Assembly: GCF_000023325.1 (NCBI RefSeq)
Contig: NC_012785.1
Span: 496,001-560,000 of the forward strand
Source: Kosmotoga olearia TBF 19.5.1
Lineage (GTDB): Bacteria; Thermotogota; Thermotogae; Petrotogales; Kosmotogaceae
Length of the DNA: 64,000 bases
Direction: 5' to 3'
Of this stretch, positions 50,277-53,122 are shown piece by piece (position 1 is the stretch's first letter; the number at the start of each line of letters is the position of its first letter). The translations under genes were made by a program, and so were the position numbers. Below the pieces are notes generated by a model that ran no database searches, was not told where the DNA came from, and saw nothing but the letters and a program-made list of their open reading frames with translations.

Positions 50277-51532
50277 TCAAGCATAACTTGCTTCTCCACT
50301 TATTACATTAAGTTTTCCTGTTACAACGAAGGCAACAGACACCGCAAGGCTTAAAGATAACGCCGTCAACACAAGATAGTGTGCTGGTACATGATCAACC
50401 AGGAATCCATACGTTGCTGTTCCTAGTGGTAAGACGAGTCGCGACATCACTGCAAGCACTGAAAATACTCGTGAACGAACTTTTGTGGGAATCGCCTTCT
50501 GGAAAAAAACCCTTATCGGTGTACCCACAAAGGCGTTCAATAACCCTGTTGCTATTAAAGGAAGGGCAATGGCAACGAAATACAACCATGTAACCCCTCC
50601 AAAGAATTTCACTCCCCAGGGGAAGATCAAAATATTAAAGATATATACTGGTACCATTTGACCAAATAGTCCGAACTTAAAAAGCCTACCAGGATTTCGT
50701 TTCGCAAAAAATGAGGCAATCAACAGATTACCGATGAGATTCCCAATAATCCAGCATGAGTTTAGGATACCATATTGTTGACTGTTAAATCTGACAACTG
50801 TTCTCGCAAAATAAGGAAATACAACTATAAATGAGGGAATAAAAAGAAAATCGACTATCATGAGAAATATCATTACCGTAAACACATCTGACCTTACTTT
50901 CAAAAACGCAAACCCATCTTTGAGATCCTCAAAGAACTGCTCAACGGACATTTTCTTTCTTTCTGTTGTCTGCTTATACTGGATGAAGATCTCGCTGATC
51001 CCGGATACTACAAATGACGTAGCATTCAATATAAGAACAACGCCTATCCCAAGTGGATAAAGAACGCCTCCCATTGCTGGGCCTACGATATAACTTAAAT
51101 TGTTTATAGCACCGAGTATTGAATTTGCTCTCGTAAGTGCTCTTTAGGAACAATGTCCGGAAGCATTGCACTGGTAGCCGGACCAAAGAAGGTATCCATG
51201 ATTGCCATCGCAAATTGCGAAATGTAAATAACAGGAAGTGTGAGCATATTCCTGTACGCCAAAAAAGCGAGAAAAAATATCAGTGCTCCGCGGGCAAAAT
51301 CCATATAAATCATGATAGCCTTTCTGTTAAATCTATCGCCAACCACACCGGCTATTGGTGCCAGAATAATCACTGGAAGCATCGACATAATCAAGAATGT
51401 CCCCATCATCGTTCCGGAACCTGTGATATCAAGAATATAAAGCGAAAGAGCGAGTGACTGTATCCCACTTCCTATTAAAGACACAAGTCTACCCATTGCA
51501 TACAGCCAGAAATTTCTTAAACTACTTTTCAC
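50277..51532 (-). pseudogene. MFS transporter disrupted by a one-base deletion
   Basis: Two frames (51104-51532 and 50277-51074) together match the intact MFS protein at 53123-54379 over its whole length. The N-terminal part reads SLRNFWLYAMGRLVSLIGSG and breaks after PDIVPKEHL. Aligning the DNA, the intact gene has GAAAATCTTACAAGAGC where this copy has GAGCACTTACGAGAGC, one base short near 51137-51145, and the correct reading (LTRANSILG) resumes in the other frame. The downstream frame starts again at GGVLYPLGIGVVL. A functional full-length exporter is unlikely, unless ribosomes shift. Confidence 0.88.
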
Positions 51533-52058
51533 ACTATCACTCCTTTACAAAAAAACCGTTGTAGGTTGTACGTTGTAGGTTGTGCGTAAAAATCGAGAAC
51601 CGAGAACCGAGAGTCCGAGAAGGCTGCTTCGCAGCGGACACGAATCCTTTTGGGATTGATCCGAACTCTTTCAGAGTTGTCACGAACTCCTTCGGAGTTG
51701 ACCCGAACTGCTGCGCAGTTGATGTGCGCCTGCGGCGGAAAGCAGCTACGCTGCTGAAGTGCTTGACTACGTCTTGAAAGCTTCAGACACTGTCATTCGT
51801 TAGAAGTCAACGGATACCTGTCATTCTGGAGATGTTTAATCCAGAATCTTAATCCGCCACTGTCATTCTGGAAATCTTCTATCCAGAATCTGTGCCTCTT
51901 AACTACGAGATCCTGAATCAAGTTCAGGATGACCGACCTTATTTTCGAAACGTGTTTAATGATTTTCGTTCTTTTGGTTCTATCCGCCGAAGGCGCTTGT
52001 CAACCGCGAAGAAGTTTTCACCCACTCCGGAGGAGTGCTTGCCCCTGACGAAGTCAGG
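51533..52058. repeat. Intergenic repeat mosaic left of the group II intron
   Basis: Heptads ttgtagg, ttgtacg, ttgtagg, ttgtgcg (51559-51586), GAACCGAG heptads (about 51597-51620), a five-unit array (51622-51726), three hairpins of the CATTCTGG/CCAGAATC and CATCCTGAA/TTCAGGAT type (about 51813-51935), and palindromes at 52002, 52023 and 52044 forming the left half of the array split by the intron. Confidence 0.8.
51622..51737 (-). repeat. Mini-palindrome array, six units, period 21 bp
   Basis: Starts at 51622, 51643, 51664, 51685, 51706 and about 51727. Plus-strand units: gctgc-ttc-gcagc, aatcct-ttt-gggatt, aactct-ttc-agagtt, aactcc-ttc-ggagtt, aactgc-tgc-gcagtt, cgcc-tgc-ggcg. The linkers are gacacg, gatccg, gtcacg, gacccg, gatgtg. 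Minus-strand loops are gaa, aaa, gaa, gaa, gca, gca. Confidence 0.92.
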
Positions 52059-52825
52059 ATCGAGTAGGAGGGGGGAATCCCCCCGTCCTCTCACAGAACC
52101 GTGCGTACGGGCCAACGTACACGGCTCATGGATTGAGTATCGGATTCTCCGACGGTGGTTAAGTGCCATCATACTACCTCCGCATGGCCTTCAGAATAAG
52201 TCGCATATAACAGAATCGGTTTCTTCTTCCACACAGGCATCGGTTTTCTACCCCTTTCGAGGAATATGCCCAACCCTATAATGGATTACTTGCCTGCCCC
52301 AGCCATTTCAGACCACCGTCGGCATTTCAGCCTCCGTTACGGGCTCCTGTTATATTCGCTTCCCTTTGTGCCATTTCCTCAACCCTTCCCCCCTTCGCAA
52401 GTAACAGACCCTTTCGGTTCCTGTTACCCCCATCGCTCAAGGCGATAGTCCCTTCTCCTTTCAGAGAGGTTCAACACTACTACGGGTTCATCTGCCATCC
52501 TCCTCCGCTTCACCGGTCCTTGGCTCTCCCCTTGTTCCGGCTTACCCATCTTGGGACGAGTGAGGACTTCCCCGGGTAAGACATACAGCTTTCATCCGAA
52601 TCCTGCCATCCCAACCTGTAGAGTTGGAGCTCGGGCTTACCCATTCACGGCAAGGTTACCCACTCTACCGGCCAACACTGGTTCACTTTCGTTCAGTTCC
52701 GGATTTTGCCTTAGGCTTCCTTCAGATTCACCGTTACCAGTGACACCCTTGCCCTCAGCTAATGCTTATTTCGCTCCCCGCATTCGGGACTTTCACCCTA
52801 TAGTTGTATGTCATGCCGGGCACAC
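52059..52825 (-). mobile_element. ORF-less group II intron (767 nt)
   Basis: Read on the minus strand it begins GTGTGCCCGGCATG and has GGGTGAAAGTCCC shortly after, the conserved start of domain I. Domain V is at 52095-52127 (GAGCCGTG ... CACGGTTC with a CG bulge). Domain VI follows (GGGGGG-att-CCCCCC, then TCCTACTC with a bulged A), and the end is CGAT, an AY terminus. No reverse-transcriptase frame is present; apparent frames across it are accidental, so splicing or mobility would need a maturase in trans. It lies between linker and palindrome of a 21-bp array, and its removal restores the period exactly, confirming both ends. CTTACC (complement of 52575-52580) is a candidate EBS1 for the exon AGTAAG. 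Confidence 0.9.
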
Positions 52826-53122
52826 CTTACTCCCGGCATAGCCGGGCTTACCCACGCGCAGCGTGCTTACCAGCCGCATAGCGGACCTCTCGGTTCTCGG
52901 ACTCTCGGACTCTCGATTCTTACCAGGAGTTCGTGACAACCGCTTGCGGTTCGTGTCTCTTAACCAACTAACTGCGTCTGCAAACCTCTTGTTTTTCCCC
53001 ACTCCAAAGGAGTGCTTACCCCCAGCGTAGTTGGGCTTACCCACGCGAAGCGTGCTTACCAGCTGACAGCCTCGGCAAACCTTCGGGGCGTAGCTCCGCG
53101 CATCAATCAGCTTTATTGATTC
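52826..53122. repeat. Repeat mosaic right of the group II intron
   Basis: Resumes the split array with linker cttact (52826-52831), cccggc-ata-gccggg (52832-52846), cttacc and cacgc-gca-gcgtg (52853-52865). Then come CTCGG heptads (about 52884-52918), more units near 52925-52955 and 53003-53055 (cactcc-aaa-ggagtg, cccagc-gta-gttggg, cacgc-gaa-gcgtg), and an AGCTGACAG tail also found after the broken MFS gene. Confidence 0.82.

Follow-up and report, generated by a model that had tools for sequence, protein, structure and literature searches.

The complete genome of Kosmotoga olearia TBF 19.5.1 was found to carry, at positions 52059-52825 on the minus strand of the window (the whole 64,000-nt stretch analysed, positions 496,001 to 560,000 of NC_012785.1), a 767-nt intron that very probably represents a non-autonomous group IIC element, deprived of its maturase ORF, dependent on a maturase supplied in trans and landing in arrays of mini-hairpins through recognition of both the hairpin and the sequence paired with EBS1. 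The group IIC class, the existence of 11 copies, the role of the array linker as IBS1 and the mismatch between the EBS1 of the window copy and its own site had escaped the original prediction, which described an ORF-less group II intron at an array junction.

The coordinates and the parts foreseen for this intron were all found. Read on the minus strand, the element begins at 52825 with GTGTGCCCGG, which opens with the 5' splice-site consensus GTGTG (52821-52825, of the form GUGYG and invariant across all 11 copies), and it finishes at 52059 with CTCGAT, hence with an AY end. The covariance-model search, in which an absence of matches would have counted against the prediction, gave matches above the gathering scores: RF02001 (group-II-D1D4-3) scored 104.2 bits (E 3e-20; gathering score 32) over the ribozyme core at 52581-52743, and RF00029 (Intron_gpII, D5/D6) scored 45.0 bits (gathering score 40) over 52129-52059, its last base coinciding with the 3' base originally predicted. 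Domain V was placed at 52096-52127 by the RF00029 alignment and folds with a 2-nt bulge, while domain VI (52061-52093) has its bulged A at 52065, the 7th nucleotide from the intron 3' end, unpaired in the predicted fold. The segment containing domains V and VI folds well below its shuffles (z = -4.3, with z = -3.2 for the domain VI segment); domain IV folded weakly as a single sequence (z = -1.7) and gave 4 compensatory pairs of 47 with RNAalifold, so that its structure is at most tentative. An ORF search of the element disclosed no maturase-sized ORF. Full-length homologues of 97-99% identity are present in the genome, and chance alignment or a coding origin of the element was ruled out by the Rfam matches and the comparison of the copies.

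The intron has an MFS-type gene on either side, on the same strand. An MFS-type gene at window 50277-51532 is split in two (265 and 142 aa), apparently by a frameshift; over 921 nt this stretch shows 74% identity to the flank that holds the MFS gene beyond the intron array, which makes a tandem duplication likely.

The genome consists of one 2,302,126-bp contig, and the search for sister introns in other arrays, recommended with the original prediction, brought the family to 11 copies in total. Six of these, located at six different sites, have no ORF: the window copy, c2, c3, c4 and c5 (767 or 768 nt), and D1, which is 632 nt long owing to additional deletions. The remaining five, F1-F5, are about 2.0 kb in length (F3 has a damaged 3' end) and each encodes an intact 423-aa RT/maturase with a YADD motif. 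The dN/dS of the maturase was 0.03-0.09 between diverged copies, and 0.27 for the pair F2/F3, which has only two differences. The IEP of F1-F5 matches TIGR04416, RVT_1 and GIIM only and has no endonuclease domain; against solved structures it scored 298 bits with the GsI-IIC RT, 271 with the 7uim-series maturase, 172 with the 6me0 maturase and 145 with LtrA. Domain content (RT and maturase, no endonuclease domain) and best PDB matches (GsI-IIC RT and the 7uim-series maturase) point to group IIC as the class of this protein.

Both ends of the maturase ORF are kept in the ORF-less copies, which indicates that these descend from an ORF-bearing intron. In the window copy the start remnant (52156-52172), with its ATG at intron nt 654, aligns at a position identical to that in the ORF-bearing copies, and the end remnant CCGTCGGAGAATCCGATACTCAATCCATGA (52126-52155), comprising the last 9 codons and the stop, overlaps domain V and has the same end as the intact ORF of F1-F5. 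About 40 fixed differences in domain IV set the ORF-less copies apart from F1-F5, the remainder of the intron being nearly identical; judging from these common differences, the ORF was probably lost once, long ago. Among the sisters c2 is the closest to the window copy (99% identity).

A helper in trans had been anticipated for the intron, and this part of the prediction held, since five intact 423-aa maturases are encoded in the same genome, so that the ORF-less copies coexist with a related intact IEP. The helper is carried by sister introns and is not the free-standing LtrA-type gene that had been proposed for a search: the sole other RT in the genome (1521383-1521907) has an internal stop. 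This RT is near the third of three D5/D6-like matches to a second group II intron type, at genome 82018-82087(-), 87979-88048(-) and 1522404-1522473(+) (L044, L045 and L046), which scored 39.1 bits, just below the cut-off. At genome 1376512-1376606 (L032:3013-3107) there is also a fragment corresponding to the intron's initial 95 nt, diverged to 77% identity.

All 11 copies are inserted in a single register, in which the 5' exon displays a hairpin of 5-6 bp followed by a 6-nt linker, the stem ending at -7 and never nearer the junction. At the window site a stem scan identified the 5'-exon hairpin CCCGGCTATGCCGGG (52832-52846; 6-bp stem, 3-nt loop), and the 5' exon ends with the linker AGTAAG (52826-52831), of which the last 5 nt, GTAAG, are assigned to IBS1 from sequence and pairing. 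The 3'-exon hairpin CCTGACTTCGTCAGG (52044-52058) begins at +1, and the chain continues with CACTCCTCCGGAGTG (52023-52037), 21 bp further on. Deletion of the intron joins the palindromes 52044-52058 and 52832-52846 by the linker CTTACT at the 21-bp spacing, in agreement with the original prediction. The stem is perfect at 9 of the 11 copies, D1 and F2 keeping 5/6 pairs with one mismatch each, and in most copies the 3' exon opens with the next hairpin. Elsewhere in the window, only 0.70% of positions have a perfect stem of 5 bp or more that ends 6 nt upstream of them, so that the register is not due to chance; perfect stems on both sides were present in 5/11 copies versus 0.04% of background positions.

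Insertion 3' of DNA stem-loops is a known habit of group IIC introns, and the exact position of the junction is thus explained by target recognition. These introns are reported to insert after terminators or at attC sites (PMC4424553), and the structure of the E. rectale intron comprises a DNA stem, whose consensus length is about 12 bp, a spacer, IBS1 and IBS3 (PMC10190682). The K. olearia copies likewise lie 3' of a DNA stem-loop with an IBS1 and, tentatively, an IBS3. They fall outside the terminator/attC subtype as judged from the absence of a T-tract and from array membership, the linkers (GTAAG, TCACG, TCTCG etc.) having no T-tract and lying within tandem arrays. Thus, the register follows the IIC rule of hairpin plus IBS1 with a shorter, non-terminator hairpin, and with stems of 5-6 bp versus about 12 bp in the E. 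rectale targets it cannot be taken for granted that shape is recognized in the same way. The arrays are intergenic, and it could be argued that they are simply tolerated DNA, insertions elsewhere having been lost by selection with no hairpin recognition involved; this is highly improbable given one register and one linker orientation in 11/11 copies, the excess of 5' stems over the background and the known use of DNA stem-loops by IIC introns (PMC4424553, PMC10190682).

The arrays of the window consist of 15-nt palindromes that recur every 21 bp, separated by linkers of 6 nt, and occur at several places between 3396 and 53035, with 24 hairpin pairs at spacing 21; a single hairpin-pair pattern, applied across the genome, detected 61 array places and none in a reversed control. 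Two linker dialects were distinguished, GTAAG followed by C and TCNCG followed by A. Imperfect palindromic repeats of the TCATTCTGG...CCAGAAT type adjoin the arrays at window 51818-51891 and about 51900-51932, and resemble the dispersed repeats targeted by introns in related genomes.

The view that the array existed before the intron gains support from intron-free arrays with the same hairpin order, these being paralogues and not orthologous sites (among the 100 relatives searched, the kinship list shows no congener). The array at window 9176-9267 (plus strand) is 82.6% identical over 92 nt to the joined intron flanks, its hairpins succeeding one another in matching order through the junction, and a neighbouring intron-free segment at 53000-53035 (plus strand) was recognized from the direct repeats D2/D3 and the hairpin chain. 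At genome 160090/160091 (minus strand, upstream of F1) an array runs through the junction without an intron: the side that ends at the junction is 89.6% identical to the 163-nt 5' flank of the window copy, and the roughly 120 nt that follow are 87.6% identical to the 3' flank of c5.

Abundant and similar arrays, flanks that have common array segments at 80-95% identity, and mosaic sites indicating recombination between intron copies would all be expected if recombination or gene conversion had spread the intron passively from array to array, with no retrohoming and with the ORF-less form carried along in array duplication. This explanation is considered unlikely: the intron-adjacent 5' exon hairpins and linkers mostly differ by copy, although exchange of arrays would carry them, and EBS1 suits the local linker in most copies. 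In addition, a near-perfect palindrome of 38 nt, in which the final 31 nt of the intron are combined with their complement, is located in a hairpin array at genome 1355117-1355154 (L033:3118-3155) with the exact intron 3' junction, and this footprint resembles an RT-primed insertion. It is perhaps the snap-back product of an insertion of this type that was aborted.

Comparison of the copies correlated the EBS1 sequence (intron nt 177-181) with the linker at the insertion site. EBS1 is CUUAC in c4, c5, F4 and F5, found at GTAAG or GTGAG with C at +1, and CGUGA or CGAGA in c2, c3 and F1-F3, found at TCACG, TTACG, TCGCG and TCTCG. The pairing sum over the 11 copies was 47.5 of 55 versus 34.2 with shuffled sites (p 0.0013, changing to 0.0003 when the window copy is left out and to 0.017 when near-identical copies are dropped), in a test that contains few independent events and ignores the relatedness of the copies. 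Nucleotide 187 (G or U) pairs with C or A at +1 in 8/11 copies and is tentatively assigned to EBS3, which in the E. rectale IIC intron is situated in the D1d coordination loop (PMC10190682); pairing of this column with +1 was unsupported in the copies of related genomes (Mesotoga-type). Sites 178, 180, 181 and 187 occur in all four combinations with the type of domain IV. As the EBS types are found in both ORF-bearing and ORF-less copies in this way, recombination (or recurrent change) is indicated, and the common EBS alleles could in part derive from recurrent mutation.

The window copy departs from this agreement. Its EBS1, CGUGA (52645-52649), located by the intron alignment and the pairing test, suits UCACG linkers but is confronted with GUAAG where it is inserted, while the U at 52639, a tentative EBS3 proposed because it co-varies with the +1 nucleotide in K. 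olearia copies, suits A at +1 and faces C. Consequently 2.5 of 5 pairs are formed at EBS1 and the putative EBS3 is also mismatched; other weak EBS1 pairings were those of D1 (3.0) and c3 (3.5). Most likely, the window copy is an off-dialect insertion, with hairpin recognition outweighing IBS1 pairing, or has since been altered by gene conversion; poorly matched insertions have been described in Thermosynechococcus elongatus as well (PMC2882425). Because its EBS1 suits the other array dialect, this copy probably splices poorly. That it is a dead relic, catalytically complete and blocked in splicing by the mismatch of EBS1 and EBS3 with the exons, is compatible with the main explanation and about evenly balanced: c2 (99% identical) forms 5 of 5 pairs at its own TCACG site with A at +1, which sets off the poor pairing of the window copy, but the ribozyme ends and domains V and VI are all intact, and the short EBS1 pairings of IIC introns are buttressed by the maturase (PMC10190682), so that weak splicing may remain.

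The preferred reading, a non-autonomous intron mobilised in trans, can be formulated as follows. The maturase ORF would have been deleted from domain IV of a parent intron family that survives as five intact autonomous copies, and the F1-F5 maturase most likely binds the ORF-less RNA and aids its splicing out of array transcripts. The RNP would read the short hairpin by its shape and, through EBS1-IBS1 pairing, the last 5 nt or so of the 6-nt linker, reverse-splice 3' of the array hairpin and be copied by target-primed reverse transcription, the insertion thereby falling exactly between the linker and the following hairpin. The two main EBS types fit the two array dialects, and recombination would have shuffled them between autonomous and ORF-less copies. 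A broader idea, for which we have limited confidence, is that tandem mini-hairpin arrays have become, for this IIC lineage, landing sites that can be used again and again, the short hairpins giving the register and the linker a two-dialect address, with an EBS1/EBS3 module that recombines between autonomous and non-autonomous copies and with wrong-dialect hops, such as the window copy, acting as intermediates of retargeting.

Taken singly, IIC introns, trans-assisted ORF-less introns and divergence of the EBS are already known, and ORF-less introns have been described as rare in bacteria (PMC4424553). No paper naming group II introns in K. olearia was found, nor, in the literature searched, the combination of these features with mini-hairpin arrays and common EBS types. 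Here, the members of one IIC family within a single complete genome include autonomous and non-autonomous as well as matched and mismatched copies, with a target that is recurrent and mostly empty.

Two further genomes from the same family, G009 and G012, contain related introns with a core about 82% identical and an IEP 64-65% identical. These introns too are inserted past palindromic intergenic repeats without a T-tract, with an EBS1 fitting the repeat tail (CAGAU with ATCTG; GAGAU mostly with ATCTC or its one-mismatch version), but the palindromes are single and dispersed, with stems of about 8 bp, and nearly all copies have the ORF, in some cases broken. In G012, six copies stand past one repeat type, for which 98 matches were counted. 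In G009, introns abut another copy at L114 (G009:C1:813525-819379) and L108 (G009:C1:1435184-1437183), one starting at the base after the end of the other, which suggests insertion beside an existing intron. A scan of genome contigs with a single IEP gave no match, and an IEP profile scan found 14 distant relatives, mostly Bacillota; a simple 5'-end pattern placed the intron start in 1 of these 14, and in one distant relative (L128) the intron lies past a hairpin and T-tract.

The closest precedent is TeI3/TeI4 of T. elongatus (Mohr et al. 2010, PMC2882425), also from a thermophilic host, where one family includes ORF-bearing and ORF-less copies with a common ORF deletion leaving both ORF ends, and where families with diverged EBS fit different sites, some insertions being poorly matched. 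Unlike the K. olearia introns, these belong to group IIB, select sites by EBS1/2/3 pairing and have no hairpin-array target described; moreover, each EBS family is a clade in TeI3/TeI4, whereas the K. olearia EBS types cut across the split between ORF-bearing and ORF-less copies. The terminator/attC IIC introns (B.h.I1, E. rectale; PMC4424553, PMC10190682) share the IIC-type IEP without endonuclease domain, the insertion a few nucleotides past a DNA hairpin and the short EBS1-IBS1 pairing. The K. olearia introns differ from them in using tandem mini-hairpins, whose stems measure 5-6 bp, loops 3 nt and linkers 6 nt, with no T-tract and with two linker dialects, and in that 6/11 copies have no ORF. 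Target stems of this size depart from the one in the E. rectale structure, which has about 12 bp (PMC10190682), and the K. olearia system makes testable the weight of hairpin shape versus EBS1 pairing in IIC insertion, as well as the change of intron target specificity.
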